From NCBI GenBank assembly GCA_030681265.1, contig JAUXXD010000189.1, positions 1 through 35,864 of the forward strand: DNA of 35,864 nt, in the 5' to 3' direction. The DNA comes from Candidatus Didemnitutus sp. (GTDB taxonomy: Bacteria > Verrucomicrobiota > Verrucomicrobiia > Opitutales > Opitutaceae). The position numbers and the translations under genes are program-made. Below the pieces are notes generated by a model. That model was given only the letters and a program-made list of their open reading frames with translations, had not been told where the DNA came from and did not search any database. This document shows, piece after piece, positions 12,218-29,987 of this stretch. Within the stretch, counting starts at the first letter, position 1, and each line of letters opens with the position of its first letter.

Positions 12218-12529
12218 ATGACGCCACTCTTGTCGAAATCCGCCGTTCTGCATCAAGCGCTGCCGTTAGCTGGTGCGTGGCGCCCCGTTCTGGCGCAGGT
12301 GCAGCAATTGAAGGACGGCTTCGGCCTGGCCCTGACGGTGCTCTTCATGTTCGGGTTCATGTGGGGAATTGTGAAAATCTGGTCGGGGGCCAACGCCATC
12401 GCCAAGGGCGACCCGGACGGGAAGGCCGGCATCGTGGCGGGAGTCATCATTGCGGCGGCGGCCAGTATCATGGGCGCGCTGTTCGCTATCTTTGGATTGG
12501 AGGACGCCGTGATCCGGCCGCGATTCTGA
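12218..12529 (+). CDS. VirB2/TrbC-like T4SS pilin subunit
   Basis: Small protein with two hydrophobic helices (ALTVLFMFGFMWGIVKI; AGIVAGVIIAAAASIMGALFAIFG) at the head of a VirB-ordered cluster. Confidence 0.7.
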   Translation: MTPLLSKSAVLHQALPLAGAWRPVLAQVQQLKDGFGLALTVLFMFGFMWGIVKIWSGANAIAKGDPDGKAGIVAGVIIAAAASIMGALFAIFGLEDAVIRPRF

Positions 12530-12530
12530 C

Positions 12531-12854
12531 ATGGAACTGCGGCACACAGACACCAATTCCGCGGACGACTCCCGCGGCCGGGTTTTCGGACTCGACGGCA
12601 ATCTCTACCTGCCGGTCGTGATCGCGGCGGTGGTGGGGCTGGGCCTGCTGGCGGTTTGCGGCGTGGGACTCCGGACCGGCTGGACGGTGGCGGGCGTGAT
12701 CGCCGGCATTCCGCTGGCGATTACTCTCGCTTGGGCGGTGCTGCTCAAGAACGGACGGCCGCCGGCCTACGACCGTGATTGGGTTGAACAATATTTGGGC
12801 GGCGGCGATTTCAGCCGGTCGGCCGGACAACAGCGAGGACTCCTCGACGGATGA
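12531..12854 (+). CDS. VirB3/TrbD-like T4SS protein
   Basis: About 100 aa with two TM helices immediately before VirB4; 4-bp overlap with it. Confidence 0.65.
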   Translation: MELRHTDTNSADDSRGRVFGLDGNLYLPVVIAAVVGLGLLAVCGVGLRTGWTVAGVIAGIPLAITLAWAVLLKNGRPPAYDRDWVEQYLGGGDFSRSAGQQRGLLDG

Positions 12855-15472
12855 AACCGCACGCCCAGGCCCCCAATGGAGTGTTCGCGGAGAACATCCT
12901 GCTCTACGGCTCGTTGGAGCGTGGCGCCATTGCCGCGAAGGGATTCTGGCTGGAACCGCCGGACCTGCGCGGCACGGGCAACGAACGCCGCAACGCGTTT
13001 CAGGATCAGGTGCGGGCGCTGCTCGCGTTAATCACGCCGGGCCGACGGTTGCAGGTGCAGTGGTCCTGTGATGCGGACTACCGCCGGGAATTGCTGCGCT
13101 ATCATGCGGAGACGGAAAAGATGAGCGCGCCAGCGGTGCGGCGGGTACGGAACGAACGGTTCAGCCGGTATTGGCGGCGGATGCACGGGCGGGAACTCCG
13201 GCGCGAGCGGCTAGCCGTATTTCTTTCGATCGAGATCACGGCTTATGCGGGCAATGTCGCCACCCGCGGCAGCCTGCTGGCGCATTACCGGAAACTGCTG
13301 CGGGAGCTGGCGGCGCAGTTCGAGGAATTCGCGGGGGCGATGCGCGCGATCTTCGGCGCGGAAACCCCGGTGCGTCCGATGGACGATGCCGCGCACTTCG
13401 AGTGCCTGCGGCGGTTTCTGAATCCGGGCTTCGCCCGGCGCGCGGAGGATGCCGCCGGCGGGAATTGTGACCCGGGTCTGACGATCCAGGAAAACTGCTG
13501 GCATGGCGACGGCGTAGGCCAGCCCGACGGCGGGTTCCAGTTGGACGGTCACTTCCATTGCGTGCTCGTGCTGACCCGCTGGCCGCGGGCTACGCGGCCC
13601 GGCGTGATCACGCACCTCACCGGCCTGCCGTTCTTGGACTATCAGCTCACGGTCAATGTCACGCCCGTGGACACGCGCGGTGAAATCAACCGCGAGGAAC
13701 GCGCGATGGAGCGGCTGGCCGGCGAATACGGCAGCGAAAAGCGACACTCGCTGCTGGTTTCCCTCCAGAAAAAGGAGCGGAAGATCGAGAGCCTTGCGGG
13801 CGGATTCGCACGGCCGTTTCGCGTCGGCTATATCATCCGGGTGTGGGATGCCTCACGGGAGGGCCTGCGGGACAAGGTCAGTCAGGTGCAGGCGGCCATT
13901 CAGGCGATGGACGGAGCGCAATCCTATGAGTGCGCGAAACCGGTGACCGCCCGGAAACTGTTCTTCGCCTCGTGGCCGGGCTGGACGCACTCGTCCTACC
14001 GCGACTGGGAACTGTATGCGGAAGACGCCTACCTGGCGGACCTGCTGCCGTGTTCGAGTACGTTCACCGGCCTGCTGGCCTCGGCGGAGGCGCTCTACGA
14101 CGGAGCGAACGGCAATCTGGTCGGAGTGAGCGCGCAGGTCGGCGGCTCGCCGCAGCACGCGGTGCTGTTCGGCATGAGCGGCGCGGGAAAGTCGGCGCTG
14201 ATGCGCGACCTGCTGATGCAGACGGCCGGACATTTTGCCTACACCCTCATCGTGGAGGAGGGACTGTCGTATCAGGATTTCACGACGGAACTAGGCGAGA
14301 CGCCGATCGTGGTGCAGCCGGATGCGCCGCTGACCCTGAACTATCTCGATACCTTGGGCCTGCCGCTCACGCAATTGCAGGTGGCGAGTGCGGTCGCGCT
14401 GTTGGCGCGCATGATCGGCGAGCCGGCCGATGCGGAGCGGCAGGCCCTCCGTCAGGCGCAGCTCGCGCACTACGTCCACCTGCTCTATCAGGACGCGTTC
14501 ACCGATTGGGCGCGGCGGTGTCCGGAAAAGGCGCGCGAGGCGGGAGAGCTGGCCTGCGCCGTGCATCGCTGGCGGCAGCGGATGCCGGCGGGCTCCACGG
14601 CTCTGGAGGCGTATGCGGATTTGCGCGACCGGCGGCAAGCGAACGAGGCGGAAGCGATGGAGTGCGTCGCCACCTTGGATGAGGCGGCAGTGACGCGGTT
14701 CGCGCAGGATCCGGCGACGGCGCGGCTGGTCGCTCACACCGCGTGCGCGTTGTGGACGCCAGAGGATTTTCCGACACATGGCGCGCTGGTCGAACTGCTC
14801 GCCTACGGGCGGCTGCCGGAACATCCGAAGGAGGAAACGGACCGGCTGGCGACCTTGCTCGGTGCGTGGACCGCGCGGGGCCAGTATGGCCGGCTCTTCG
14901 ACGGCGTCACCAACGTGTCTCTCCGGCGGAGCGTGGCGCACTTCGAACTCGGGTTGATTCCTGAGCAGGCAGTGGAACTGAAGACAGCGGCGGGGCTGCT
15001 CATCTCCGGCTTCGCGCGGCAGCATATTCTGGCCCTGCCGCGGGCGCTGCGGAAACGGATCGTGTTCGAGGAGGTGGCGCGGTTCCTCGATGTCCCGGGC
15101 GGCGAGGCGATCGTCGCCGAAAGCTACGCGCAGTTGCGGAAGTTCAACTGCTGGGCCGTCAGCATCGTGCAGCAATACGCGCGGTTTCGTACGTCGCGTG
15201 TGCGGCCGGCGGTGATCGGCAATGCGAAGCAGTTTTTTCTGATGCGGCAGGCGGACCGGAGTGATCTCGCGGACCTCGCGCGCGATCTGCCGCTGCCCGA
15301 AAGCGCGGGAGAAGTCGTGCAATCCTATCCGTTGCCCGAACAGCAACCGGAGGAAAACCGCCACTCGTCGGTGTGCTATTTCCTGCCCACGGCCCAGCCG
15401 CCGCAGTGCGGCACGCTGCGCCACGTCCAACCCCAACCGGAGAAAGTCCATGAGACTGTGGCCACTGTTTAG
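12851..15472 (+). CDS. VirB4/TrbE-like T4SS ATPase
   Basis: 873 aa; PQHAVLFGMSGAGKSALMRDLLMQTAGHFAYTLIVEEGLSYQDF (Walker A); RKRIVFEEVARFLDVPGGE; VirB4-like N-terminal region. Confidence 0.9.
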   Translation: MKPHAQAPNGVFAENILLYGSLERGAIAAKGFWLEPPDLRGTGNERRNAFQDQVRALLALITPGRRLQVQWSCDADYRRELLRYHAETEKMSAPAVRRVRNERFSRYWRRMHGRELRRERLAVFLSIEITAYAGNVATRGSLLAHYRKLLRELAAQFEEFAGAMRAIFGAETPVRPMDDAAHFECLRRFLNPGFARRAEDAAGGNCDPGLTIQENCWHGDGVGQPDGGFQLDGHFHCVLVLTRWPRATRPGVITHLTGLPFLDYQLTVNVTPVDTRGEINREERAMERLAGEYGSEKRHSLLVSLQKKERKIESLAGGFARPFRVGYIIRVWDASREGLRDKVSQVQAAIQAMDGAQSYECAKPVTARKLFFASWPGWTHSSYRDWELYAEDAYLADLLPCSSTFTGLLASAEALYDGANGNLVGVSAQVGGSPQHAVLFGMSGAGKSALMRDLLMQTAGHFAYTLIVEEGLSYQDFTTELGETPIVVQPDAPLTLNYLDTLGLPLTQLQVASAVALLARMIGEPADAERQALRQAQLAHYVHLLYQDAFTDWARRCPEKAREAGELACAVHRWRQRMPAGSTALEAYADLRDRRQANEAEAMECVATLDEAAVTRFAQDPATARLVAHTACALWTPEDFPTHGALVELLAYGRLPEHPKEETDRLATLLGAWTARGQYGRLFDGVTNVSLRRSVAHFELGLIPEQAVELKTAAGLLISGFARQHILALPRALRKRIVFEEVARFLDVPGGEAIVAESYAQLRKFNCWAVSIVQQYARFRTSRVRPAVIGNAKQFFLMRQADRSDLADLARDLPLPESAGEVVQSYPLPEQQPEENRHSSVCYFLPTAQPPQCGTLRHVQPQPEKVHETVATV

Positions 15473-15686
15473 TTTTTGTCTGCTCGGCGGCTGTGTGCAA
15501 ACGCCGGCGTTGCCCGAGCCGGTCGATCAGGCCGTCAAGGCCCGCTACTGGGAAATCCAGGCAGCGCAGCGCCAGCTTCCGCCGACGGCGCCTGTCCGGC
15601 TGCCGTTGCGCAAGCCGGCCCGTTTCGAGGACGGCGCGCACCGCGTGCCGTCGACCGAAGATATCATCGTCACGCGTCACCCATGA
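15450..15686 (+). CDS. Small lipoprotein (VirB7-like candidate)
   Basis: MRLWPLFSFCLLGGCVQTPALPEP: lipobox LGGC; overlaps both neighbours. Confidence 0.65.
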   Translation: MRLWPLFSFCLLGGCVQTPALPEPVDQAVKARYWEIQAAQRQLPPTAPVRLPLRKPARFEDGAHRVPSTEDIIVTRHP

Positions 15687-16498
15687 AACTTCTTTCCTTG
15701 ATCCTCTTGGTCACCGGAGTCGTTCCGGCCTTCGGACAATGGGTCGTGAATGATCCGGTCAACACGGCCGTGAACACGGCGATCAAAGGCAACCAGATCG
15801 CACAGCACACGGAGGTCATCCGGCAGTGGGCGGAGCAACTCGAGAAACTCAACCGGCAGATCCGTCAGGTCGAGGACCTGCTGGCATTGCAACGGGAGCT
15901 GAGGGATGTGATGGGCAATCCCGGGCGGGCCGGTGAGCGCGTAGTGCGGCGGACTTTGGGTCACACTGAGTTTGGCCGAAGCTACGGCGAAACGGTGGAC
16001 GCCGTGCGGCGTTTGTCCGATGCGGTCGATTCCCTGCGTCGGACGGCGCACGGCATCCACCGGTCGCTGGATGACCGCACCGTCCTGGGTTCGCCGTTTG
16101 CGCGCGAACTCTCGCAGTATCGCCGCTACGCCGCGGTGGAACGACAGGCGGATGGTCTCGCCGTTGTGTTTGACGCGACGGACGCGGAACTCCTGGCGGT
16201 GCAGGCCGATCTCGCGGACGCGATTGCGGATTTACGGAGTGCGACCACGCAGGCGGAGACGGACAAGCTCAATGGCACGATTGCGGCGCTCAACGGACGG
16301 CTCGCCGTGCTGGCCGCGCGGCGGAGCGAGGAAACCGACAAGGTGCTGGTCGCGCAGCTGCTGAACGAAAACCAGGCGGATAAGGAACGGCGTGATTTGC
16401 AGGAAAAGCAGATCGCGGAGGAGCGGCAGTCGCTGGCGGCGATCAACGCGTGGCAGTCCTCGCTGCGCCTCACTCCCGTCCGCTCCACCCGGCCATGA
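15683..16498 (+). CDS. VirB5/TrbJ-like T4SS protein
   Basis: Signal peptide MKLLSLILLVTGVVPAFGQWVVNDPVN...KGNQIAQHTEVIRQWAEQLEKLNRQIRQVEDLL: TrbJ/VirB5-type coiled-coil protein; position after VirB4. Confidence 0.75.
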   Translation: MKLLSLILLVTGVVPAFGQWVVNDPVNTAVNTAIKGNQIAQHTEVIRQWAEQLEKLNRQIRQVEDLLALQRELRDVMGNPGRAGERVVRRTLGHTEFGRSYGETVDAVRRLSDAVDSLRRTAHGIHRSLDDRTVLGSPFARELSQYRRYAAVERQADGLAVVFDATDAELLAVQADLADAIADLRSATTQAETDKLNGTIAALNGRLAVLAARRSEETDKVLVAQLLNENQADKERRDLQEKQIAEERQSLAAINAWQSSLRLTPVRSTRP

Positions 16499-16728
16499 AG
16501 CGGATGCTCCCCTATCTGTTCATTTTGATTGCGGGCTTCCTGCTCGGTCACTGGGTCGCGAGCAAGCGGCGCGAGGTCCCGTCGGACCCGCAGCCGGTGA
16601 ATGCTTGGCAGGAGTCGATCCGGATCGAACGCGTCCGCCCGGAAACACCGGATGACGCCAAGGCGCGGCTGATGGAGAAACTGCGTGAATCGGAGCGCCG
16701 GCAGCGGCCGGAGGAGGGACGGAACTGA
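16495..16728 (+). CDS. Small single-TM protein between VirB5- and VirB6-like genes (positional candidate for entry exclusion/TrbK analogue)
   Basis: MKRMLPYLFILIAGFLLGHWVASKRREVPSDPQPVNAWQESIRIERVRPETP...; location matches trbK between trbJ and trbL in RP4. No lipobox. Confidence 0.5.
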   Translation: MKRMLPYLFILIAGFLLGHWVASKRREVPSDPQPVNAWQESIRIERVRPETPDDAKARLMEKLRESERRQRPEEGRN

Positions 16729-17759
16729 TGGACAACTTCATTCCCGGTTTTCGCGAAGCGATTGTCGCCATGGGCGACAACCTGCGGTTCGTGCTCTATT
16801 TCGTGTGTGTCGCCGGACTGATGCTGCGCATCAATGCGGCGCGGGCCGAGCAGGACAGTCTCGTGCGGCCCATCGTGCGTTCCGTGTTCGTCATCGGACT
16901 CATCGCCACGCTGCCGTGGTGGTTTGCGCTGGCGGAGGATCTTTTCCTCACGATGGCGGAGACGTTCCATCACGGATATCTGGAAAAGCCGATGCAGGCG
17001 GCGGGCCGGCTGCGGGACAGCCTGGCGGATACGCCGGGCGAGTTCAGCTTCGCGCGGCTCGGCGAGTCCCTTTATCGCGGGACGCTGTTTGCCACCGGCA
17101 AGCTGGTGGTGCTGGTCGCCAGCGTGCTGCAGCTCCCGCTGCTCATTCTGCATTATATATTGAAGCTGCTGTGCTTCCTGTTCCTGCCGGTGGCGTTCGC
17201 GTTGTTCCTGGTGCCGTCGCTGGAACACCTCGCGGTGCGTTATCTGCAACAGACACTGGCGGTGCTCGCCTGGCCGGTGGGCTTCGCGGTGACCGAGCTG
17301 GTCGCGTGGCATTTGCTCAGCGCCTATGCGACCAATCTCGCGACGGCCTACGGCCTGCGGCCCGGCGAAATCGACGCGATGTCCTATGCCAGTCTCGTCG
17401 GGGCGCTGTTCGCGGCAGTTTGGCTCATCCTCGGCACGCTCGGAACGCCGGTGGTGATGCAGCAACTCTTCTGCGCCGGATCGCCGTTGTCGGGCGGCGG
17501 CACCCAGGGACTCCAGCAACTGTACACTGTACAGCAGGTGATGTGGCTCGCGAAGTCACTCAAGACTGGCGGCGTAGCTGCGGTTGCGGCGAAGCCGGGC
17601 GGGCAGCCTCCGGGTGGCGGACTGCGTCCGCCGCTGCCGCCGCCGACTTCGCCGGGACCGGCGCCCGTTCCGGTCGCGCCGATGGATCCCTCGGGCGATC
17701 GCGCGGTGGCGGCGATGCTCGCTTCGACGCGGATGCCCGCGCCGCAAACCAGCTTCTGA
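16728..17759 (+). CDS. VirB6/TrbL-like polytopic T4SS protein
   Basis: Multiple TM helices (FVLYFVCVAGLML; SVFVIGLIATLPWWFALAEDLF; LLILHYILKLLCFLFLPVAFALFLVPSL; ALFAAVWLILGTLGTPVVMQQLF) and Pro-rich C-terminus; order after VirB5. Confidence 0.75.
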   Translation: MDNFIPGFREAIVAMGDNLRFVLYFVCVAGLMLRINAARAEQDSLVRPIVRSVFVIGLIATLPWWFALAEDLFLTMAETFHHGYLEKPMQAAGRLRDSLADTPGEFSFARLGESLYRGTLFATGKLVVLVASVLQLPLLILHYILKLLCFLFLPVAFALFLVPSLEHLAVRYLQQTLAVLAWPVGFAVTELVAWHLLSAYATNLATAYGLRPGEIDAMSYASLVGALFAAVWLILGTLGTPVVMQQLFCAGSPLSGGGTQGLQQLYTVQQVMWLAKSLKTGGVAAVAAKPGGQPPGGGLRPPLPPPTSPGPAPVPVAPMDPSGDRAVAAMLASTRMPAPQTSF

Positions 17760-17762
17760 ACC

Positions 17763-18416
17763 ATGTCGACCCTGAACCAGACGACTGTGCCGCATCGGCG
17801 GCTTGACGCTCCTCCGCGCGGACAGCGCCGGCATCCGCTGGAATTGTTCACCGACTACGCCGTGGCCGCGCGACTGTGGTTCGGCGTCGCTTTGGTGACG
17901 AGCGCTTATGCGGTGGTTGCGCCGTATCTGGTGATCCGCGCGCATCGGACGAAGGAAAGAGTCGTGATTCTCGACGCGGGCGGAACCTATCACGTCAGCC
18001 CGCTGCTGGGTTTCGAGGACGCCGGCAAACTGCATGAGTCCCACGCGTTGCTGGCCTGTCTCGCCCTGTGGTCGCGGCATCCTGGCGGAGCGGATTATCC
18101 GGAGCTGCTCGAACGGCTCTTTTTGCCCGACGCGTTGCGGGAAGCGCGTGAAGCGATCGCGCGGACGGCGGAGGAATTCGCGGCGAAATCCCTGCACCAG
18201 AAACCCGAGGTGCTGAAGCTCACCGTGCTCGAAACCCGTGCGGACACCGTGCTCGTGCAGGTCGAGGGCCAGTGGATTCGCACGGGACTTTTTCAGGGCC
18301 GGCCTTTCAGCGAGGCGCCGGCGTTCACCGCGCGGTTCACCTTCGCGCGCAACCCCAACCTGGGCGCCAACGCCCGCTACCCCCTTGCCGTATGGAAATT
18401 CGACGTCTCGTCCTGA
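17763..18416 (+). CDS. VirB8/TrbF-like T4SS protein
   Basis: Single N-terminal TM (LWFGVALVTSAYAVVAPYLVI) and periplasmic domain ending in NPNLGANARYPLAVWKFDVSS; position before VirB9-like gene. Confidence 0.7.
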   Translation: MSTLNQTTVPHRRLDAPPRGQRRHPLELFTDYAVAARLWFGVALVTSAYAVVAPYLVIRAHRTKERVVILDAGGTYHVSPLLGFEDAGKLHESHALLACLALWSRHPGGADYPELLERLFLPDALREAREAIARTAEEFAAKSLHQKPEVLKLTVLETRADTVLVQVEGQWIRTGLFQGRPFSEAPAFTARFTFARNPNLGANARYPLAVWKFDVSS

Positions 18417-19198
18417 GCGCCCTGCTCCTGTCCGCCGGCAGCCTGCCGGGCGTCGCCGCGATCCGCGCCTATCCGCTCGATGAGCGGATTGCCTACACCG
18501 TGCAGGTCAGCGTGGCGGCACCGACCACCTGCCTGTTTCCCGGTGCGATCACCGCGCTGGAGAGCGCGCATCTTTCGACCAAGGCGGAGGACGCGCCGCC
18601 GGTGCTGTTGTCCCATCAGCCGGGCACGAATTTCTTTTCGGTGCGCGCGCTGCACCCGGAGGCCGCGGCGGCGGTCAACGTGATCCATCGGGGCCGGGTG
18701 TACGTGCTCACGTTCCGGAGCGGGGACGAAGCCGACCGCGCGGTGTCGTTTTTCACTCCCGCCGAGGTGACCGACTCCGGCGTGACGCCAAGTCTGCTGC
18801 GCGGACTGCTGGAGCGGGCCAGGAACCATGCGTTGATGGCGGCGCAGTATCCCGCGCTGGCCGAGACGGTGGACCGGGCCGCACCGCGGAGCGTCAATTG
18901 GTATCCGGGTTTCACGGTCACGCTGGAGGAGGTGTTCCGTTTCGATCCGGAGGACACGCTGGTGTTTCAGGCGCGGATTCGAAACGCGACGGCGACGCCG
19001 TTGCGGTTTGATCCCGAGCATCTCGCGGTGCGGGTCGGACCGTCGATCTATGCGGCGGCAATTACCGACGCAGCGGGCGAAGTGCCCGCGATGAGTCACG
19101 CCAGCGTGTGGTTCGCCGTGCGCGGCGCGCCGGGCGGAGGCCGGGCCAATCTTTCCGTTCACAATGCGTTTTCGGTTCTCGTCGCACGACTGCCATGA
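18392..19198 (+). CDS. VirB9/TrbG-like T4SS protein
   Basis: Signal peptide MEIRRLVLSALLLSAGSLPGVAAIRAYPLDERIAYTVQVSVAAPTTCLFPGAITALES...; between VirB8- and VirB10-like genes. Confidence 0.7.
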   Translation: MEIRRLVLSALLLSAGSLPGVAAIRAYPLDERIAYTVQVSVAAPTTCLFPGAITALESAHLSTKAEDAPPVLLSHQPGTNFFSVRALHPEAAAAVNVIHRGRVYVLTFRSGDEADRAVSFFTPAEVTDSGVTPSLLRGLLERARNHALMAAQYPALAETVDRAAPRSVNWYPGFTVTLEEVFRFDPEDTLVFQARIRNATATPLRFDPEHLAVRVGPSIYAAAITDAAGEVPAMSHASVWFAVRGAPGGGRANLSVHNAFSVLVARLP

Positions 19199-20178
19199 AG
19201 TTTGACCTGACTTTCTTTTCCTCGCCCACCGGGCAGGTGACGCTGGTCACCGTCGTCGCCCTGGTGGCCGGGCTGGCCATTTATTCGCAGCGGCAGCGGC
19301 GGCCGGCCGCGCTGCCCGCGGCGCCAGTCACCGCGGTGGCGCCGTTGCCCAAGACGACGGTGCGCGATGGCGCCCGGTTCCGGCTGCCGTCGGTCACGGA
19401 GTTGGTGACCCTGCCGACATCCGGCGAAACGCGACCGGCCGAGCCCATCGCGGCGGTGGCGGCGCCGGTCACGTTGCCACTGTCGTTGGTCGCCCCGGTC
19501 ATGCCGACGGAAACCGCGGGCCCGGTGGCGCCCTTCGGCCGGCTGGTTCCCTGCGAGACCGTGCTCGCGATCGAGTCGAACCGGCTGGAGACGCCGGTGC
19601 TGGCTCTCGTGACCGAGGATGTCTGGCACCACGGACGGCTGGTGATCCCGGCGGGATCGGAAGTGCACGGACGTGCTTCGACGGACCGCGCGCGAGAGCG
19701 CCTGGCGGCCGAGGGCACATGGACCATCGTCTGGCGCGGCGGTCCCGACAACGGTCGCGAACTCACGGTGCGCGGACTGGCGCTGGACCGGGAGCGGGAT
19801 CCGGTGACCGGCGTCTGGGGAGCGCATGATGGCTCCGCAGGTTTGCGCGGAACCATCGTGCGCACGGACGACTGGCGCGAGGTGCAGCTTTTCGCGGCCA
19901 CGTTCCTGTCGGCCGCGACGGCGGCCCTGCAGGAGACGCGCGGCGTCACCGGACTTTTGGGCGAAACGAACCTGCCGGCGGTGACGGCGCGCAATGCGAC
20001 GTTGGCCGGCAGCGGCGCGGTGCTGCGCGATTATGCGCAACAGATCCGCGAGTCGATTGATCGGGACGGGTTTTACGTCCGCGTGCCCGCCGGCAAGGCG
20101 TTCTATCTCTACCTCACCGAAACCCTCGACTTGGGCCGCAGCCGTCCTGCCGCGGCCCTCACTCCCCATGCGAACTGA
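19195..20178 (+). CDS. VirB10/TrbI-like T4SS protein
   Basis: N-terminal TM, Pro/Ala linker, then RLVPCETVLAIESNRLETPVLALVTEDVWHHGRLVIPAGSEVHGRASTDRARERL: TrbI/VirB10 beta-barrel domain. Confidence 0.88.
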   Translation: MKFDLTFFSSPTGQVTLVTVVALVAGLAIYSQRQRRPAALPAAPVTAVAPLPKTTVRDGARFRLPSVTELVTLPTSGETRPAEPIAAVAAPVTLPLSLVAPVMPTETAGPVAPFGRLVPCETVLAIESNRLETPVLALVTEDVWHHGRLVIPAGSEVHGRASTDRARERLAAEGTWTIVWRGGPDNGRELTVRGLALDRERDPVTGVWGAHDGSAGLRGTIVRTDDWREVQLFAATFLSAATAALQETRGVTGLLGETNLPAVTARNATLAGSGAVLRDYAQQIRESIDRDGFYVRVPAGKAFYLYLTETLDLGRSRPAAALTPHAN

Positions 20179-20776
20179 CGTGCTGCTCATTTGTGTTCTT
20201 CTGCTCAGCGGCTGCCAGGCGGTGCCACCGCCGGCCAAAGTGGTGTCACCGGTGGCGACCGTGCAGCCGGTTCCGGCGGCGCCGACGGTTGACCCGCTGA
20301 TCCGCCAGCGGCGGCACATCGAGGCGCTGATGGCGCAGAACGATGCGCTCACCGCCCGCGTGCGTGAACTGGAAATGCCGCATGAACCGGTGGCTCCCGT
20401 GCCGGAAACGGTGGTCGCGGCGGAGCCGGTGGCGCCTGCCCCGGCGGTGCACCGCGTGCCGGAGCCCGCCTTGCTCCCCAATGCGGACGGCGTGCTCGAT
20501 CTCACGGTCGGACCGGCGGACGACGAAACGAATCCGTTCGCGGTGCGGACGACGGGGCCGGAGGCCGTGCGCGAATTGACGCTGAAGCTGGGCGGTCTGG
20601 TGCACGGCCCGGTGTCGTGCGCGATCGTCAATGGCCGGACCGTGCAGGCGGGCGACCGCATCGAGTCCCTTGAAGTCGTGCGGATCGAGACGGCGGCCGT
20701 GCTGTTGCGCCACGGTTCGGACCTGCTCCGGCTGCCGCTGAACGATCAACCCGTGCGGCTGCGGCTGCCCCGCTGA
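20168..20776 (+). CDS. Lipoprotein with PilP/GspB/GspC-like C-terminal domain
   Basis: MRTDVLLICVLLLSGCQAVPPP (lipobox); C-term LGGLVHGPVSCAIVNGRTVQAGDRIESLEVVRIETAAVLLRHGSDLLRLPL resembles the PilP/GspC fold; precedes gspF-like gene. Confidence 0.6.
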   Translation: MRTDVLLICVLLLSGCQAVPPPAKVVSPVATVQPVPAAPTVDPLIRQRRHIEALMAQNDALTARVRELEMPHEPVAPVPETVVAAEPVAPAPAVHRVPEPALLPNADGVLDLTVGPADDETNPFAVRTTGPEAVRELTLKLGGLVHGPVSCAIVNGRTVQAGDRIESLEVVRIETAAVLLRHGSDLLRLPLNDQPVRLRLPR

Positions 20777-20777
20777 G

Positions 20778-21977: not shown

Positions 21978-21981
21978 TATT

Positions 21982-22929
21982 ATGATCATCCATTCCTACC
22001 TTGTGCCGCTGCGTCACCGGCGGGTTCCGTTCCGGCGGCTGGTCCGCGGATTTTCCCTGCTCGAAATCGTCCTCGTGCTGTTTGTCCTGGGCATCATCGC
22101 CGCGGCCATGGCGCCGTCCGTCCGCGACATCGTGGAAAAATCCCGGCAGACGGCGGAGGCGCGGACGCTGGCGGAACTGGCGGACACGATCACGGCGTCG
22201 TTCGCGCAGACCGACCTCGGCAACCTGAACCTGGCGGCGCTGCCAGGCACCGTCGGGGCGGGCGAAGTGCCGACGCGTTTCTCGACGTCCACGAGCGTAC
22301 CGTATGCGAACACCGCGACGGAGGACTGGTTCGCCAAGGTCGGACGCTTGCGGGGACTTTCGCCGCAGAGTGGTGTGCCGCCAATGACGCAACCGGAGCT
22401 GGCGCGCATTGCGTTCAATCCGCTGCGCAATGCGCGGTGGCTTTTCGTCGGGCCGAACGAGACGGGGCGGCAGCGGTTTCTGGTGGTGAGTCTGATGGCA
22501 CGCCCTGACCAGTTGGTGCTGCCGGCCTTTGAAGGTAGCGCGGCGTGGTTCGATGCACTGTGGAACCATGACTGGGAGAATCGCACTGCGGGTGTGCCCG
22601 CCTACTGGACGGGCCGGCTGACCGCGGCGCAACTCGCCGCCTGGTCGCAGGGCAGCGGCGGCACGACCCAGATCCACCGCCTCTGCGTCCGGCGCATCGT
22701 GCTGCCGAAGCACCGGGTCACGGTGAACAACAATCATCCGAGCGAGAGCGCGTTCGTCTCGTTCAACAACACGGCCAACGCGTTCACCGCGGGACCGAAT
22801 TCCGGGGCGAACGTCACGCCGGAAATCCTCGGCGGACGGCTCGTCATCATCAACCGCGGCGCGGCGTGGCCGGGCGTCGAGGCGCTGCGGTTTCACCTCA
22901 ACGACAACCCGACCGTCACCCTCCAATGA
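21982..22929 (+). CDS. Prepilin/pseudopilin with class III cleavage/methylation motif
   Basis: LVRGFSLLEIVLVLFVLGIIAAAMAPSVRDIVEKSRQTAEA. Confidence 0.9.
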   Translation: MIIHSYLVPLRHRRVPFRRLVRGFSLLEIVLVLFVLGIIAAAMAPSVRDIVEKSRQTAEARTLAELADTITASFAQTDLGNLNLAALPGTVGAGEVPTRFSTSTSVPYANTATEDWFAKVGRLRGLSPQSGVPPMTQPELARIAFNPLRNARWLFVGPNETGRQRFLVVSLMARPDQLVLPAFEGSAAWFDALWNHDWENRTAGVPAYWTGRLTAAQLAAWSQGSGGTTQIHRLCVRRIVLPKHRVTVNNNHPSESAFVSFNNTANAFTAGPNSGANVTPEILGGRLVIINRGAAWPGVEALRFHLNDNPTVTLQ

Positions 22930-24431
22930 AAACTATTGTGCTTTTTTTGTTCGTCCTCGGGACCGCGCTTCGAGTCACCGCGGGCTCGGCTTCAATCTTC
23001 TTCGATTTCCAGAACAACCCTTACGCGTCCGGCTCGGCCACGATCGATCTCAACGCCTACGGCGCGACGTCGATCACCATCACCGTGACGACCGATGCCT
23101 ACGGTGCTTCGCAGCAGGGCGGCGGCCGCAATTATAACGGTTACGCGGAGGCGGTCATCGGATCGTCGGTGCGAAGCGAGTCGATTCCGAACGGTTCCGA
23201 TCCGCTCAACATCTCCGTGGACAACAGTCTGACACTGACCAAGGGCCCGGACGGCAACTGGTGGGCGGAGGGAGTGAACCATGGCACGTCGGTCGCGGTG
23301 AGCGCATTCGTGTATGTGGATGGGGAAAATGCACAGGGTGTGGGGACTGCAGCCTGCTCGATACACTGGATCGATGCGCCGCCGAATCAGCCGCCGGGCA
23401 TCAGTTGGATCGAAGTGCCGGGTGCAGTCGACTCGGGTGCGGTCTATGGCGTGAGTGCCCGCGGCGAGGATGCGGACGGCAATCTCGCGTCGGTGACGGT
23501 CTGGAAAAACGGCGTGCCGTTCGCGTCTTGGAGTGGCTCAGGCTCCTGGGCTGACGCGGGCCAGACGACGAGCGATGTCGGACCGCAGTCCGTGGTCTTC
23601 ACGGCGCAGGCAATTGATGCGGCGGGCGCGGCTTCGCCGGTGAACAGCCAGACAGTGACGATCCAGGCGCCAGCGCCCGTACACTATACACTGACTACAT
23701 TGGCGGGCGCGGGTGGCAGTGTCAGCCCGGGCGGAACCTATCCGGCGGGCACGGTCCTGAGCATCGTCGCGAACGCCGATGCGAACCATGACTTTGTGAC
23801 TTGGAGCGGAGACGCCGGCGGGGGCAGCAATCCGCTGACCCTGACTCTCGATGGGCCTCGGACGGTGCAGGCGAATTTTGCGGTGAAGACTTTCACGCTC
23901 ACGACGGGTGCCTTGGACGGCGGCAGCGTCACGCCGGGCGGCACCTATCCCTACGGCACGACAGTCACGCTCTCGGCCAGTGCGGGCGCGACCCACTACT
24001 TCACGGGCTGGAGCGGGGATGTCTCGGGGACGGCGGCGGCCGTCGCGGTACTGATCGACCGAGCCAAGTTCGTGCTCGCGCAATTCGAGCCGAAGGCGGC
24101 GCAGATCATTTCGTTTTTGCCGCCGGGAAATCAGAACGTGGGCAGCGTGGTTTCCTTGAGTGCGACCGCGTCCTCCGGACTGCCGGTCAGTTTTGTTCTG
24201 CTCGACGGACCCGCCGTGCTCGACGGGAACAATCTCACGGTGACCGGGCCGGGCGCGATCACTGTGCAGGCCGAGCAAGGGGGCGATGACTTTCACCTGC
24301 CGGCGCCAGCCGTCACCGATTCGTTCAACGCGTCGTCGTCCAGCGTGCTCAAGTACCAATCGGCGGGCCGCACGCTGCTGCAGGGCACGCGGACGGCGGA
24401 AGGAATTCATTACGTGCTCGGCAACCCCTGA
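22926..24431 (+). CDS. Exported protein with two InlB B-type repeats and Ig-like segment; candidate pilus-associated adhesin
   Basis: Signal peptide MKTIVLFLFVLGTALRVTAG; tandem HYTLTTLAGAGGSVSPGGTYPAGTVLSIVANADANHDFVTWSGDAGG / TFTLTTGALDGGSVTPGGTYPYGTTVTLSASAGATHYFTGWSGDVSG; then ATASSGLPVSFVLLDGPAVLDGNNLTVTGPGAITVQAEQ. Confidence 0.75.
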   Translation: MKTIVLFLFVLGTALRVTAGSASIFFDFQNNPYASGSATIDLNAYGATSITITVTTDAYGASQQGGGRNYNGYAEAVIGSSVRSESIPNGSDPLNISVDNSLTLTKGPDGNWWAEGVNHGTSVAVSAFVYVDGENAQGVGTAACSIHWIDAPPNQPPGISWIEVPGAVDSGAVYGVSARGEDADGNLASVTVWKNGVPFASWSGSGSWADAGQTTSDVGPQSVVFTAQAIDAAGAASPVNSQTVTIQAPAPVHYTLTTLAGAGGSVSPGGTYPAGTVLSIVANADANHDFVTWSGDAGGGSNPLTLTLDGPRTVQANFAVKTFTLTTGALDGGSVTPGGTYPYGTTVTLSASAGATHYFTGWSGDVSGTAAAVAVLIDRAKFVLAQFEPKAAQIISFLPPGNQNVGSVVSLSATASSGLPVSFVLLDGPAVLDGNNLTVTGPGAITVQAEQGGDDFHLPAPAVTDSFNASSSSVLKYQSAGRTLLQGTRTAEGIHYVLGNP

Positions 24432-24442
24432 ACCTGATCCCC

Positions 24443-25834
24443 ATGAAATGCTGTCTTTGTTTTCTGCTGAGCTGCGCGCTGCTGCGTGCGGCGGAACCTT
24501 CCGTGCTCGACCGGCCGGTCGAAAACCTGCGGCTGGAAAACGCCTCGCTGGCGGCGGCGCTGCGCACTGTCGCGCGGGCTTGCGGCACGTCGGTGCTGCT
24601 CGCTCCGGAGGTGACCGGCGAGGTCACGGTGGAGATCAACCGCGGCACGCTGCGCTCCGCGCTGGTCGCGCTGGTCGAACCGGCGGGTTTTCATTTTGAG
24701 GAGACGCCGGACGGAATCGCGGTGCGGTTGCGGGAGACCGTGCTGTATCCGATCGACTACCCGCAGTTGACGCGGAGCGGCAGCGGCAGCGCGTCAATCA
24801 CTTTGGGCGGAGCGAACACCGGCGGCTTCGGCCCGGGTCAGTTTCAGGGGACGCAGCCGGCGAACGGACCGCAGGGCGTGGGGTCGGACGCGACCCAGGT
24901 TTCCATCTCGCAGGAAAACCAGAACACGTTCTGGACCGGACTGGAGGCGGAATTGCGCGCGATGCTGGCGGAGGGCGACGGCCTGGTGCTGAACAAATTC
25001 AGCGGCGTGGCGCAGGTCAGCGCGCCGCGGGAGCGTCAGCAGGTCGTGCGGGCCTTCATCGAATTGGTGAATCGGCGCATCACGCGGCAGGTCGAAATCG
25101 AGGCGAGGATTGTCGAGGTGTCGCTGCGCCACGAGCGCAAGCTGGGCATCGACTGGGATCTCGCGGCCGGTGCGGTGGGCAAGGTCACGGTCGAGGCTGG
25201 CGCACCGCTCGAAGTCACGGGTGTCGGGGGCACGCTGCTCGCGGCCAATTCCTTTGTGGCGAATCTGGGTTACGGCCGGACGAACGCGGTGATCCACGCA
25301 CTGCAACAGCAGGGCGAGGTGAAGACCGTCGCGCAGCCGCGACTGCGCACGCTGAACAACCAGACGGCGATGATCAAAGTCGGCGAGGACCGTCCGTTCT
25401 TCCGGTTGCAGCAGAGCACGACCTTCAATCAGGGCGGCACGACGAGCCCGTTCAATCAGACGCAGGAAAGCTACTCCGTCTCGACGATCACCATCGGCAC
25501 CATCCTCGCGGTGACGCCGCAGATCGACGGCTCGGGCACCATCACGCTTGATGTGCTGCCCGCCATCACGCGGTTGCAGGCCATCGTCACGAGTCCGGAT
25601 GGCAAGCAGACCGCGCCGCTCACCGAGGTGAAGCAGGCGTCCACGATCGTGCGGCTGCGTGACGGCGAGACCGCTGTCATCGGCGGGCTCATTTCCGAGG
25701 ACACGGGCGACAGCCTCCGGGCCGTGCCGGTCCTGGGCGCGATCCCGGTGGCAGGGCGCGCGTTCCAGACGAAGGCCGCGCTGCGCACGCGCACCGAACT
25801 GGTGATCTTTCTCACGCCGAGGCTCGTCAACTGA
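24443..25834 (+). CDS. Secretin (GspD/PilQ/MshL-like)
   Basis: Signal peptide; LENASLAAALRTVARACGTSVLLAPEVTGEVTVEINRGTLRSAL; RQVEIEARIVEVSLRHERKLGIDWDL; AVTPQIDGSGTITLDVLPAITRL; C-term ETAVIGGLISEDTGDSLRAVPVLGAIPVAGRAFQTKAALRTRTELVIFLTPRLV. Confidence 0.95.
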   Translation: MKCCLCFLLSCALLRAAEPSVLDRPVENLRLENASLAAALRTVARACGTSVLLAPEVTGEVTVEINRGTLRSALVALVEPAGFHFEETPDGIAVRLRETVLYPIDYPQLTRSGSGSASITLGGANTGGFGPGQFQGTQPANGPQGVGSDATQVSISQENQNTFWTGLEAELRAMLAEGDGLVLNKFSGVAQVSAPRERQQVVRAFIELVNRRITRQVEIEARIVEVSLRHERKLGIDWDLAAGAVGKVTVEAGAPLEVTGVGGTLLAANSFVANLGYGRTNAVIHALQQQGEVKTVAQPRLRTLNNQTAMIKVGEDRPFFRLQQSTTFNQGGTTSPFNQTQESYSVSTITIGTILAVTPQIDGSGTITLDVLPAITRLQAIVTSPDGKQTAPLTEVKQASTIVRLRDGETAVIGGLISEDTGDSLRAVPVLGAIPVAGRAFQTKAALRTRTELVIFLTPRLVN

Positions 25835-27027
25835 TGCTCGCTTTGCTCGACAGATTCCGACCGCCGGCGACCGTGGCCCGTCCCGCTTTGGGCGGCGATG
25901 CGACCCGCGCGCTCGACACCGTGCTGCGCGCCGCGGCGCGGGAGGGAGCCAGCGACATCCATTGCGAGCCGAAGGAGGACGGTTTGCTCATCCGTTTCCG
26001 GATCGATGGCGAAATGCGCGAGCACGCGCGGTTGCCGGTCGCGCAGCGCGACGCGGTGATCGCGCGGGGCAAGATCACCGGAGGGATGGACATCACGGAA
26101 AAGCGGCTGCCGCAGGACGGCCGCGCGCTGTTGCAGGAAAAGGGCCGGCGGTTCCACCTGCGGCTCAGCACGGTGCCGACCGTGCACGGCGAAAGCCTCG
26201 TCGTGCGGCTGCTCGATCAGTCCATGCCGGCGCAGGAATTCGAGGCGCTTGGATTGTCGGGAGTCCAGGCGGAGGCGCTTCAGCGCGCGCTGACCGGACC
26301 AGCCGGACTGATTTTTCTCACGGGACCGACCGGCTCGGGCAAGACGACCACGCTGCATGCGGCGCTGCATACGTTCGACCACCGTGCACGGGCGATCCAC
26401 ACGCTGGAGGAACCGGTGGAATATGAATTCGCGGGCATCCGGCAGACCGAAATCCGCGAAAAGGTCGGCCTGACTTTTGCAACGTCGCTGCGGGCGCTGC
26501 TGCGCCAGAATCCCGATGTCATACTGGTCGGCGAAACGCGCGATGCGGAGACTGCGCAACTGGCCGTGCGCGCGGCGCTGACCGGGCACCTCGTGCTGTC
26601 GACGCTGCACACGAATGATGCGCTGGCGGCGATTCCGCGGCTGCGCGACCTCGGGGTCGAACCGTTCCTGTTGGCGGCGGCTCTGCGGCTGGTGGCCGCG
26701 CAGCGGCTCGTGCGGCGTCTGTGTGCCGAATGCAAGGAGGTCCACCCGGACTCCGGCCGGCTGGTGACGGAACACGGTGTGCCCGGCGCGCGGTTCTTCC
26801 GCGCGGTCGGCTGTCCGGCCTGCCACGGCCGCGGCTACCGCGGGCGGATTGCCATCCACGAGGTGGTGCCGGCGCGGAAGTTTCTGCCGCTCATCGCGGC
26901 GAACGCGCCGCTGGCGGAGTTGGCTGCGCTCCGCGATCGCGAGGGGCTCTGCACCCTCTGGCAGCACGGCCTCGCGGCGGCCGGCGCGGGCCTGACGACC
27001 GTCGAGGAGGTCGCGCGCGTCCTGTGA
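25834..27027 (+). CDS. Type II secretion/type IV pilus assembly ATPase (GspE/PilB family)
   Basis: SDIHCEPKEDGLLIRFRIDGEM; GLIFLTGPTGSGKTTTLHAAL (Walker A); LRQNPDVILVGETRDAETAQLAVRAALTGHLVLSTLHTNDA; CAEC...CPACHGRGYRGRIAIHEV zinc motif. Confidence 0.95.
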   Translation: MLALLDRFRPPATVARPALGGDATRALDTVLRAAAREGASDIHCEPKEDGLLIRFRIDGEMREHARLPVAQRDAVIARGKITGGMDITEKRLPQDGRALLQEKGRRFHLRLSTVPTVHGESLVVRLLDQSMPAQEFEALGLSGVQAEALQRALTGPAGLIFLTGPTGSGKTTTLHAALHTFDHRARAIHTLEEPVEYEFAGIRQTEIREKVGLTFATSLRALLRQNPDVILVGETRDAETAQLAVRAALTGHLVLSTLHTNDALAAIPRLRDLGVEPFLLAAALRLVAAQRLVRRLCAECKEVHPDSGRLVTEHGVPGARFFRAVGCPACHGRGYRGRIAIHEVVPARKFLPLIAANAPLAELAALRDREGLCTLWQHGLAAAGAGLTTVEEVARVL

Positions 27028-27055
27028 TTTTTTCAACCCCCAACCCACTGAACCC

Positions 27056-27802
27056 ATGAAACGAACCCGATCCCAATCGAAGGGCTTCTCCCTTCTCGAA
27101 CTGATGTTTGTCCTCGCGATTCTCGCCATTCTGGCGGCGATTCTTCTGCCCAAGGGCCTGGATGCATTGCGTTCCAGCCGCGTGCACCAAGCGGTCCGAA
27201 CCACCGACACGCTGAAAACTGCTTTGGTTGATTTCATCAACCTGCCGGGCGGCAACGGCAGCTTTCCACGCACGGAGGGTGCGGGCATCCCAACCTCCGG
27301 CGCGGCGCTGACCGGAGCCACCGACGCCGCCAAGGGCAATGGCGCCCGGCTTGATGCGGTGCTGCTTGCCGCCGGCCGGCTGGCGCATCCGCTGAGTCTG
27401 CGGATGGGCAGCCAGACCTATGTCTCGACCGGCACCGGCAACGAGATGCAGTGGAGTCAGGCCTTGCAGGCATTCACGATGACGCCGGACGCGGCGCCGT
27501 TGCGGAACTGGAACGGCGTAACGCGCATGGAGGCGCGGACATCGAATCCGCTTCTCGCGCCGTCGATGGCCCAAGGCGCCAATTTCAGACTGGATGGCGT
27601 CACCAACCGGCCGGCCAATGCGATCATCGCCTATCTCGTGATCGTGGGCGTGCCGGCCAACGAGGCGCATGAATTCGCGCTGTCGCTGAATGCTCCGCAG
27701 CTCGCGCCGGTGCTCGGCGCCCCGTGCGACATTGGCCAGGTCGCGTATGCCCTCCCCGTGAACGGAGTCACCGACGTCTATGTTTACCTCGCTGAAATCT
27801 GA
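27056..27802 (+). CDS. Type IV pilin-like protein (candidate major pilin)
   Basis: MKRTRSQSKGFSLLELMFVLAILAILAAILLPKGLDALRSSRVHQAVRTTDTLKTALVDF: class III prepilin motif. Confidence 0.9.
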   Translation: MKRTRSQSKGFSLLELMFVLAILAILAAILLPKGLDALRSSRVHQAVRTTDTLKTALVDFINLPGGNGSFPRTEGAGIPTSGAALTGATDAAKGNGARLDAVLLAAGRLAHPLSLRMGSQTYVSTGTGNEMQWSQALQAFTMTPDAAPLRNWNGVTRMEARTSNPLLAPSMAQGANFRLDGVTNRPANAIIAYLVIVGVPANEAHEFALSLNAPQLAPVLGAPCDIGQVAYALPVNGVTDVYVYLAEI

Positions 27803-28997
27803 CCCGGCCACCGTCCTGCTGTGGGGCGACCGCTGGTGGCTGCCGCGCCACAAGTTGCCGGTGCCGTTCACCGAACCGGGCCAGGCGGCGGCGCATTTGG
27901 CCGCGGCGTGGCCCGGCCAGCCCGGCCGGCTGCGCCTCATTTACCAACCGGACGACCTCGTGACCGTGCCGGCTGAGTGCCCGCATGCCGAGCGGGCCGC
28001 ACTGGCGATCGTGCTCGCCGAGGAACATCCGGCGCTCGCGCATCCGGGGCTGTTGTGGAGTCACGAGCCGATCCTGCGAAGCGGCGACACCTTCAGCACG
28101 CTCCTGCATCACGAGACGCGGCCCGCGCTGTTCGGGCTCGTCCATGAATTGCAGGAGCACGGTTTCACGGTGGAGTCCGTCTGGCCGATGCCGACCTGGC
28201 TCAATGCATTGCCGCCGGACCTGTCGGACTCCGGCGCGATGACGCTCGTGGCCATGAGCGCGGAGCGCTTCTGCCTGTACCGGCATTCGGCGGAGGGCGT
28301 CCGCTCCGTGCAGTCGGGACAGGGCGCCGACGCGCCGGAGCGACTGGCCGAGATCCTGTGTGCGATGCTGGCACAAAGTCCGGACGAGTTCGTGCTCTAC
28401 GTGACCACCGATGACGCGTTGCTGGAAACGCTGAACCAGCGCCAGCCGGTGGTCGGCAACCGCGTGGTCGGACATTTCTCGGTGTGGGAGGCGCTCGCGA
28501 AATCGGCGGTGATTCCGGCGCGCCATCCGGCGCAGATGCTGCCCGCGGCGGCGGCCCTCTGGCCGGCGCGCCTGATGCGCGCCACTTCCGCGTTGATGAT
28601 CGTCGCGGGCTTGGCGCTGGCGGGCGACTATGTTCGACAGCACGTCGCCGCGCAGCACGCCGAGCGGGAGGCCAGCCAGGAAATTGCGGCTTTGCGGAGC
28701 GAACTTGAGCAGCGCCGCGACGAAGTCTCCGGTCTCGCCGCTCGCGAGGCGGAAGCCGGAGCGTCGACACCGTGGTGCGCCGACTGGTTGCGCACGGTGC
28801 AGCAGTTGCCGGCGGGCGTGACGCTGACGGCGTTGCAGGCAAGTCCGCAGAGCTTCGTGCTCAAGGGCGGAGTCACCGCCGGCCCGATCAATGACGTGCG
28901 GTGGCGCGCGTGGCTGACCCGCTTTGAGCAAGCCGCGTGGCAAATCGAAGCGGGCACGCCGACGGGCGGCGTGCAGGTGAAAGGAAACCGGCCATGA
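27780..28997 (+). CDS. GspL-like protein (PilM-like N-terminus, TM, PilN-like C-terminus)
   Basis: About 250-aa cytoplasmic part, TM around ATSALMIVAGLALAGDYV, coiled coil, then LRTVQQLPAGVTLTALQASPQSFVLKGGVTAG; pilus-gene context. Confidence 0.6.
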   Translation: MFTSLKSDPATVLLWGDRWWLPRHKLPVPFTEPGQAAAHLAAAWPGQPGRLRLIYQPDDLVTVPAECPHAERAALAIVLAEEHPALAHPGLLWSHEPILRSGDTFSTLLHHETRPALFGLVHELQEHGFTVESVWPMPTWLNALPPDLSDSGAMTLVAMSAERFCLYRHSAEGVRSVQSGQGADAPERLAEILCAMLAQSPDEFVLYVTTDDALLETLNQRQPVVGNRVVGHFSVWEALAKSAVIPARHPAQMLPAAAALWPARLMRATSALMIVAGLALAGDYVRQHVAAQHAEREASQEIAALRSELEQRRDEVSGLAAREAEAGASTPWCADWLRTVQQLPAGVTLTALQASPQSFVLKGGVTAGPINDVRWRAWLTRFEQAAWQIEAGTPTGGVQVKGNRP

Positions 28998-29683
28998 ATG
29001 CGCGTGTGCCGGGCGGTGGCCGGCTTTGGCTTCGCTGGGTGTGCGGGGCCGCGGTGCTGGTCGCCGTGCTGGCGGTCCGGCACTTCCGTCCGGTCAACCC
29101 AGGAACCGGAGTCAGCGAAGCTTCCCATCTCCGTCGCGAGCTGGCGGCGTTGCCGCCGCCGGTTGAGCCCGGCGCGATCCGACCGGTGCCGTCGGCCGCC
29201 GCTGCGCTGGCTTCGGCGCGGCAAGCGCTCGGCGACGGCTGGACAGTGGAGGCGTCCACCCGGAGGGAATTTCGGTGCACGGCCGTGCAGCCGGGCGACC
29301 TGCGATGGCACGAACTCGTCTCGCTCATCGAGGCGCTGGAGCAGCCCGGCATCGGCGTGCAGGCGATCCGCATCGAGACGCGCGGCAACCGGACGGTGCG
29401 GCAGTTCCGGAGCGTGGAAATCACGTTCCGGCTCACCGCGGAAACGCGCCCACTGAACCCCGTCCGACCCTTGGCTTCGCCGGCGGTCGGACCGCGTTCC
29501 GGGCGGCGGTCGGCCAGGCGGCGGGAGACCGGGTCCGAGCCTTGCGCCGCCGGCCCTCCGCCTCCGCCGCCCGCCCCGGGGGCGACCGGCTCCGGCTCCC
29601 AGGCCATGCGTCGCTGCGGTCGTCCCGGACTCCCGCGCGCGGCCGTTCAGTTTCATCCCCCAATACAAACCTCAACTCCCTGA
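28994..29683 (+). CDS. GspM/PilO-like protein with atypical Arg/Pro-rich C-terminal tail
   Basis: N-terminal TM, periplasmic segment LRWHELVSLIEALEQPGIGVQAIRIETRGNRTVRQFRSVEITFRLTAE; ends in GPPPPPPAPGATGSGSQAMRRCGRPGLPR... Confidence 0.55.
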   Translation: MNARVPGGGRLWLRWVCGAAVLVAVLAVRHFRPVNPGTGVSEASHLRRELAALPPPVEPGAIRPVPSAAAALASARQALGDGWTVEASTRREFRCTAVQPGDLRWHELVSLIEALEQPGIGVQAIRIETRGNRTVRQFRSVEITFRLTAETRPLNPVRPLASPAVGPRSGRRSARRRETGSEPCAAGPPPPPPAPGATGSGSQAMRRCGRPGLPRAAVQFHPPIQTSTP

Positions 29684-29914: not shown

Positions 29915-29987
29915 CTTCCAGGGCGGATTCCGCCCGGTGCCCGTGCCGGCCCGCACCATGCAAGTGGCCGGTAAGATTACAACGAAC

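Follow-up and report, generated by a model that had tools for sequence, protein, structure and literature searches.

That a type IV pilus (T4P) can assist conjugation is established elsewhere (PMC9045228, PMC5297154, PMC12857230). Whether the T4P and the type IV secretion system (T4SS) of one element touch or cooperate at a distance is an open question, and it is raised again by a 35,864-base contig (C188; the whole stretch analysed, here called the window) of the 3.56-Mb draft genome of Candidatus Didemnitutus sp. On this contig the genes of an F-like T4SS run directly into those of a T4P. Does anything in this gene train link the two machines? By comparison with relatives, which are Opitutaceae, we describe a lipoprotein at the join that unites a T4SS part with a pilus domain, and we weigh what it may do.

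RESULTS

A conserved junction between T4SS and pilus genes

The preliminary description of the window had read positions 12218 to 29683 as VirB2- to VirB10-like genes followed by pilus genes. Genes, order and coordinates hold, as judged by family profiles and by the recurrence of the order in relatives. The first part (12218 to 20178) is the series VirB2-B3-B4-lipoprotein-B5-small membrane protein-B6-B8-B9-B10, and the second (20168 to 29683) comprises an HR-domain lipoprotein, GspF, a large pseudopilin, an InlB-repeat protein, a secretin, GspE, a pilin, and GspL-like and GspM-like proteins (Table 1). The virB10 stop lies at 20178 and the next start at 20168, an overlap of exactly the 11 bp first noticed.

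Relatives were grouped by VirB4 identity to the window: clade A (at least 64%; hosts from many Opitutaceae genera), clade B (57 to 59%, plus two members at 50%) and clade C (about 43%). Clades A and B are each recovered as a single clade in the VirB4 tree, at 100/100 and 98/97 respectively. Among the rows compared, L036 and L051 stand for one contig, as do L043 and L076, and L045 and L085. Within clade A, virB10 and the join gene overlapped by 4, 11 or 14 bp in 21 of 21 rows, which represent 20 distinct loci, gspF started 1 to 8 bp past the join gene in all of them, and wherever a clade-A locus was long enough, the order from virB10 into the pilus genes was unchanged. The conservation of the virB10-gspF junction, which had been proposed as a check, was thereby confirmed. 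Since the same order recurs in every sufficiently long clade-A locus and the overlap in 21 of 21 rows, the train is no chance arrangement. In clade B, the genes B2 to B10 are followed by a lipoprotein gene and then by the closing gene of clade A, with no pilus; clade C likewise has T4SS genes and no pilus. The lipoprotein after virB10 is about 170 amino acids (aa) long in clade B and about 170 to 180 aa across clades B and C.

The search with the large pseudopilin as a marker covered 390 genomes from the phylum as well as 95 relatives. Strong matches were mainly in these elements; the remainder were contig fragments, more distant elements, one relic and three free-standing pili. This distribution, together with the conserved position, indicates that the pilus genes form a cassette whose slot is fixed. 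The relic (L180; G050:C16, 411-420 kb) is decayed and lies in a region of 41% GC; virB3-virB4-B7-B5-B6 run directly into PilP-GspF-pseudopilin, and B8-B10 and the remaining pilus genes are missing. One chromosome (G057:C1) holds two clade-A copies, L046 and L047, which are 95.8% identical over 20 kb; no relaxase or virD4 was found in the adjoining upstream sequence fetched.

The join protein combines two ancestries

Iterated profiles connected the join protein of clade A with the lipoprotein of clade B, and hhalign related A to B with 97% probability (E 4e-11), A to C with 95% and B to C with 97%. The clade-B lipoprotein has a lipobox, the motif KAYPVGRYVDPxDPNxMHEAHxVYRKE..WNL and a coiled coil (LEQKIAEQNQLMAALIEQNEAL). 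Within clade A, one group retains the motif domain and the rest, the window among them, retain the coiled coil; in both kinds a C-terminal HR domain follows, which the lipoproteins of clades B and C do not have. As a control, hidden Markov models of the two halves of the clade-B lipoprotein were run against all 23,305 open reading frames (ORFs) of the loci. The motif-half model found 8 hybrids (1e-9 to 1e-15), ranked directly after the clade-B proteins, and the coil-half model found most of the remaining hybrids (best 1e-10), ahead of any unrelated ORF. In the VirB4 tree, the elements of the 8 motif-domain hybrids form a single clade with no other members (100/98). The hybrids of two more divergent elements, that of G010 and the Termitidicoccus mucosus plasmid NZ_CP109797, appear to hold a motif-like domain, which was judged by eye, as well as coil and HR domain.

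The HR domain has a different history. It co-varied with the pilus genes (partial Mantel 0.66, p 0.0026), whereas its correlation with the T4SS was not significant (partial Mantel 0.27, p 0.10). Moreover, in the chromosomal relatives of the pilus (TAV5, G017; T. mucosus, G057; probably also G014) the HR protein lacks the T4SS part. On these comparisons, the join protein is a hybrid whose N-terminal part comes from a T4SS lipoprotein and whose HR domain comes from the pilus. Both ancestral types still exist apart, alongside the fusion, and a pattern of this kind classically predicts that the parts associate physically. The label "PilP/GspB-like" given at first missed the T4SS lipoprotein half.

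Two plasmid records call for a remark. The 102-kb record NZ_CP109797 (G057:C2, L096-L100) consists of two near-identical halves of about 51 kb with many frameshifts, which suggests an assembly dimer of a plasmid of about 51 kb; this plasmid of T. mucosus has relaxase, VirD4, T4SS, hybrid and pilus. The TAV5 plasmid CP007054.1 (G017:C2, L101-L105) has an inverted repeat at about 34-42 kb, and B8-B10 lie far from VirB4; several of its pilus and T4SS genes are unannotated or hypothetical, its HR protein is no hybrid, and this relative encodes a PilT (TIGR01420, 1.9e-84).

The predicted HR domain and its possible secretin partner

PF16537, the HR/GspB-like profile, matched the join protein at 2.7e-4 in the window; for the homologue L085 the match was 6.8e-7, which is above the cut-off. 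The AlphaFold model of the window protein has a helix at residues 43-69 and a confident seven-stranded beta domain at 134-201 (block means about 83-95). Its best Foldseek matches were the HR domain of Dickeya GspB (4wfw) and that of GspC bound to GspD (3oss), both with probability 1.00. The C-terminus, as modelled, is therefore an HR domain of the GspB/GspC type. HR domains bind the secretin domain N0 (PMC3169554, PMC9239104), and that of GspB anchors the secretin (PMC9239104).

The two machines

Profile support for the T4SS was good for VirB4 and VirB10 and moderate for VirB9, there through relatives only; VirB2, B3, B6, B7 and B8 were assigned by their place in the gene order, their size and their conservation, and VirB5 by order and size with one weak match. 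The best profile of VirB4 was TraC-F-type, at 71.5 bits against a cut-off of 567 and thus below curated cut-offs. Comparison of VirB6, VirB8 and VirB9 with solved structures gave no match, profile scans recognized no VirB11-type ATPase in the T4SS part, and the set TraU, TraW, TraN, TraH, TraF and TrbC was not recognized among the operon proteins scanned. By its genes, the T4SS appears to be a divergent, F-like VirB2-VirB10 system.

In the pilus part, the extension ATPase (PF00437), platform protein (PF00482), secretin (PF00263) and N-methyl pilins (PF07963) were all matched. The GspE ATPase core is intact, and the pilin precursors have the motifs RG/FSLLE and KG/FSLLE. The fold of the large pseudopilin had no meaningful match in the PDB (best probability below 0.4), and no second T2SSE-type ATPase, hence no PilT, occurs in clade-A cassettes. 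No prepilin peptidase lies within the window; as anticipated, one is encoded elsewhere in the genome, where contig C48 gave a single PF01478 match. No PilV shufflon and no rci were recognized among the genes read, a reading that included no search aimed at either.

dN/dS was 0.12 to 0.31 for T4SS genes and 0.11 to 0.34 for T4P genes including the hybrid, values that indicate purifying selection on both sets. GspM stood apart (0.85 at 43% identity), a value that is probably due to the alignment. The InlB-repeat protein is among the fastest-evolving pilus proteins.

The surrounding element

A MOBF relaxase gene and a virD4 gene, neither of them named in the preliminary description, lie upstream of the train. 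Because of these two genes, the window holds, by gene content, most of a MOBF conjugative element of Opitutaceae. The layout relaxase (opposite strand), small gene, virD4, AAA+ pair (opposite strand), T4SS and pilus is common to six elements: the window's and those in G007, G009, G021, G049 and G054.

Three further regions of the window complete the picture. At 4369-5281 (minus strand), a GNAT acetyltransferase gene lies beside a small gene in a layout like that of a toxin-antitoxin pair. The insert at 5707-10633 has a lower GC content and encodes an exported 1084-aa TSP3-repeat protein and two neighbours; it is probably cargo. At 33033-35335 (minus strand), a Fic-domain protein (PF02661, 3e-10) is encoded with a partner gene, and homologues are found on the same side of the G054:C49 element.

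Table 1. Genes of the conjugative element in the window and the basis of their assignment
Feature	Position	Strand	Basis
MOBF relaxase-helicase (TrwC), truncated by contig end	1..1725	-	PF08751 1.8e-75 and AAA_30 1e-49; place and orientation kept in G007, G009, G021, G049, G054
Small conserved gene preceding virD4	2392..2859	+	Homologues ahead of virD4 in related elements
VirD4-type coupling protein	2856..4334	+	PF10412 2.5e-11, PF02534 1.2e-7
ClpB-like AAA+ ATPase, conserved in element	10787..11716	-	PF07724 3.2e-25; synteny
Conserved partner gene of AAA+ ATPase	11695..12153	-	Synteny
VirB2-like	12218..12529	+	Position, size, conservation; no Pfam match
VirB3-like	12531..12854	+	Position and size only
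VirB4 ATPase	12851..15472	+	NCBIfam TraC-F-type 3.6e-20, VirB4_CagE 2.2e-13
Small lipoprotein, VirB7 position	15450..15686	+	Lipobox in translation; conserved
VirB5-like	15683..16498	+	Position; TIGR02791 E=0.0039, weak
Small membrane protein, conserved in clade A	16495..16728	+	Conservation
VirB6-like	16728..17759	+	Position and conservation; no profile match
VirB8-like	17763..18416	+	Position; 34-65% identity across clades A-C; no profile match
VirB9/TraK-like	18392..19198	+	Via relatives: TraK_C PF23536, 3/15 members, best 8.5e-5
VirB10/TraB-like	19195..20178	+	TrbI PF03743 3e-15
Hybrid lipoprotein: T4SS lipoprotein N-terminus (lipobox, coiled coil) and C-terminal HR domain	20168..20776	+	11-bp virB10 overlap; homology, predicted fold
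GspF/PilC platform protein	20778..21977	+	PF00482 1.6e-42
Large pseudopilin (pp1), marker of this pilus	21982..22929	+	N_methyl 1.4e-4; 37-73% identity across elements
Exported InlB-repeat protein, candidate adhesin	22926..24431	+	PF18998 3.9e-19; fast-evolving
Secretin with N0 domain (MshL-like)	24443..25834	+	PF00263 5.8e-41, PF21305 N0 9.1e-4; TIGR02519 MshL 3.1e-61
GspE/PilB extension ATPase without N-terminal domain	25834..27027	+	PF00437 4.5e-115; TIGR02533 3e-133; PilF of solved structures 3.9e-100
Pilin (pp2)	27056..27802	+	N_methyl 3.2e-8
GspL/PilM-PilN-like	27780..28997	+	Position, layout, conservation; no database match
GspM/PilO-like	28994..29683	+	Position; homologues in 9 clade-A loci; no database match
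Conserved operon-closing gene, with or without pilus cassette	29937..30473	+	After GspM in clade A, after lipoprotein in clade B

DISCUSSION

A pilus probably docked to the conjugation machine

The reading that we favour, with a probability of about 0.62, is that the pilus cassette within the F-like T4SS operon captures and holds recipients during mating-pair formation and is docked to the T4SS through the hybrid lipoprotein. In the mechanism proposed, the host peptidase, for which the gene on contig C48 is a candidate, would process the prepilins, GspE and GspF would build the fibre through the secretin, and the InlB-repeat protein may be the adhesin. The T4SS lipoprotein encoded after virB10 has been fused to the pilus's own HR (GspB/PilP-type) domain, and because of this fusion the pilus would be docked to the T4SS: we infer that the hybrid's lipoprotein end binds VirB9/VirB10 in the T4SS outer-membrane core, that its HR end grips N0 and so captures the pilus secretin, and that the whole serves conjugation. 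Fibre and DNA channel would then emerge together, with relaxase and VirD4 feeding DNA to the T4SS as usual. The pilus may contribute to the mating channel, as suggested at the outset; the hybrid makes physical docking plausible. A bolder version, in which the hybrid builds the secretin into the conjugation outer-membrane complex, one structure both makes the pilus and passes DNA, and GspE supplies a VirB11-like force, seems to us doubtful.

Several observations weigh against the favoured reading. The coil of the window's own protein scored only E 0.18, which ranks it with the first unrelated ORFs; what connects it to the T4SS lipoprotein is its closer relatives. The Foldseek E-values of the HR domain were modest (0.004 and 0.013), because the well-predicted domain makes up no more than the C-terminal third of the model. 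Clade A has no PilT, and retraction would need a host motor. The pilus-less clade B still has relaxase, VirD4 and T4SS (G025), and the pilus is thus no general requirement. Finally, when the T4SS genes and the T4P genes of 11 clade-A loci were each concatenated, the two trees shared only 3 of 8 splits and agreed only in part (Mantel r 0.52, p 0.011), far below the distance correlations within each machine (0.86 and 0.90), and there is one clear cassette exchange: two G054 elements share their pilus (100/100) and have T4SSs from different groups. Strict co-inheritance of T4SS and pilus was therefore rejected. Together, the partial agreement and the G054 pair indicate that recombination between elements replaces the cassette now and then, without any change of slot. 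On the possibility that the preliminary description had set against its own reading, namely independently mobile neighbours, the answer is mixed: the cassette is exchanged between elements, but its slot never changes and the marker pseudopilin was found away from a T4SS only in distant chromosomal relatives.

Replacement by host pilus genes was not seen, since clade-A GspE is one clade (98/99) without chromosomal paralogues; its 14 rows hold element genes only, with L007, L157, L161, L164, L174, L175, L178 and L179 being element copies. An origin of the cassette from the present TAV5-type chromosomal pilus was likewise unsupported, the GspF of hybrid-bearing elements standing apart (98/94). 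The history of the cassette may comprise a single gain with loss in clade B, or two gains.

How else could the hybrid be explained? Canonical PilP is itself a lipoprotein (PMC3169554), and the join protein might thus be a PilP that took its lipid anchor from the neighbouring gene, with no docking, in a stand-alone pilus that captures recipients as in IncI plasmids. The swapping of cassettes between elements fits this, as does the finding that clade-A members retain different halves of the T4SS lipoprotein, so that no single half is indispensable. However, a T4SS segment is recognizable in nearly every hybrid, the choice of segment tracks the phylogeny of the T4SS and not that of the pilus, and the two hybrids from G010 and the T. 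mucosus plasmid appear to retain both segments. We consider such a pilus unlikely, though it is the alternative that we take most seriously. That the cassette is hitch-hiking cargo for host-cell adhesion or secretion is very improbable: it lies inside the transfer operon and outside the variable cargo region, the virB10 overlap is present in every locus, and the join gene is a T4SS-T4P hybrid, even though free-standing chromosomal relatives and cassette exchange between elements exist and the parts resembling a type II secretion system (T2SS) could secrete proteins.

The hybrid ties the secretin to the T4SS and would also suit a composite channel, in which the path taken by the DNA would include the pilus secretin or pseudopilus, and these would not belong to an attachment organelle. 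A chimeric channel of T4SS and T4P parts is one proposal for PAPI-1 (PMC12857230), and in clade A, which has no recognized VirB11, the pilus GspE is the sole T2SSE-type ATPase of the operon. Yet the VirB9- and VirB10-like core genes have been kept under purifying selection, and the T4SSs of the pilus-less sister elements also have no recognized VirB11. F-type T4SSs, too, do without VirB11, which counts further against this channel, and we regard it as improbable. That the cassette arose with GspE as a substitute for VirB11 was rejected as a clade-A specialty, clades B and C having neither a recognized VirB11 nor a pilus.

Relation to known systems

The closest parallels are IncI plasmids R64 and TP114, in which one conjugative element likewise carries a T4SS and a T4P and the pilus stabilizes mating pairs in liquid (PMC9045228, PMC12857230). 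They have a Dot/Icm-like T4SS, separate gene clusters, a type IVb pilus and a PilV shufflon; in contrast, here one gene train encodes an F-like T4SS, an MSHA/T2SS/PilB-like pilus and a hybrid joining protein, and no peptidase is recognized in the window. The secretin reached 112 bits with the PilN-type model TIGR02520 (cut-off 287.65) and 207 bits with the MshL model. Because the secretin is not of the PilN type, the present system is, judged by sequence, no R64-type member. This bears out the idea of a counterpart assembled independently of R64: pilus and T4SS both differ, and the pilus is resident in a MOBF element.

Transfer of the integrative element PAPI-1 of Pseudomonas aeruginosa depends on its own T4P (PMC5297154, PMC12857230), and a 2025 review leaves a chimeric T4SS-T4P machine as one model (PMC12857230). 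The window resembles PAPI-1 in having its own T4P and in that a chimeric machine is conceivable. In PAPI-1, VirB4 and VirD4 are the sole clear T4SS homologues; here there is support for VirB4, VirB10 and VirD4, with the remaining core genes assigned by order. T4SS lipoproteins with a fold borrowed from outer-membrane secretion systems are known in Xanthomonas VirB7 (VirB7 motif plus N0) and Legionella DotD (PMC3093366, PMC2951367). These carry an N0-type domain; the hybrid carries an HR domain, the partner of N0, and the secretin with N0 is encoded in the same operon. With the scaffold proteins GspB, GspC and PilP the hybrid shares the predicted HR fold at the C-terminus, but its N-terminal part comes from a conjugative T4SS lipoprotein and is no transmembrane helix or plain linker.

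The chromosomal pilus of TAV5 and T. mucosus has homologous secretin, GspE, pp2, GspL, GspM, PilP, GspF, pp1 and InlB-repeat genes. It differs in a second, PilT-like ATPase, in a PilP without the T4SS lipoprotein part and in having no T4SS alongside within the 40 kb examined. The free-standing loci (G017:C1, about 926-953 kb; G057:C1, about 4846-4873 kb; and G014:C18; L184-L187, L137, L138, L188) encode the PilT-like ATPase, and behind these loci lies a giant open frame with InlB repeats, about 4000 codons long.

In the literature searched, whose coverage is partial and gives no proof of novelty, we found no description of the one-operon arrangement, the pilus type, the host group or an HR-bearing T4SS lipoprotein; as far as searched, the fused operon and its hybrid lipoprotein are undescribed. 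The element adds a conjugative system to the Verrucomicrobiota, a phylum for which that literature held no such description. Beyond this phylum, a join protein with one domain for each machine bears on the question of whether T4SS and T4P touch. Both ancestors of the hybrid survive separately, one in sister elements and the other in chromosomal pili, which is a strong pointer, at the level of sequence, to physical coupling of the two machines, and the small size of the constructs needed makes this coupling testable.

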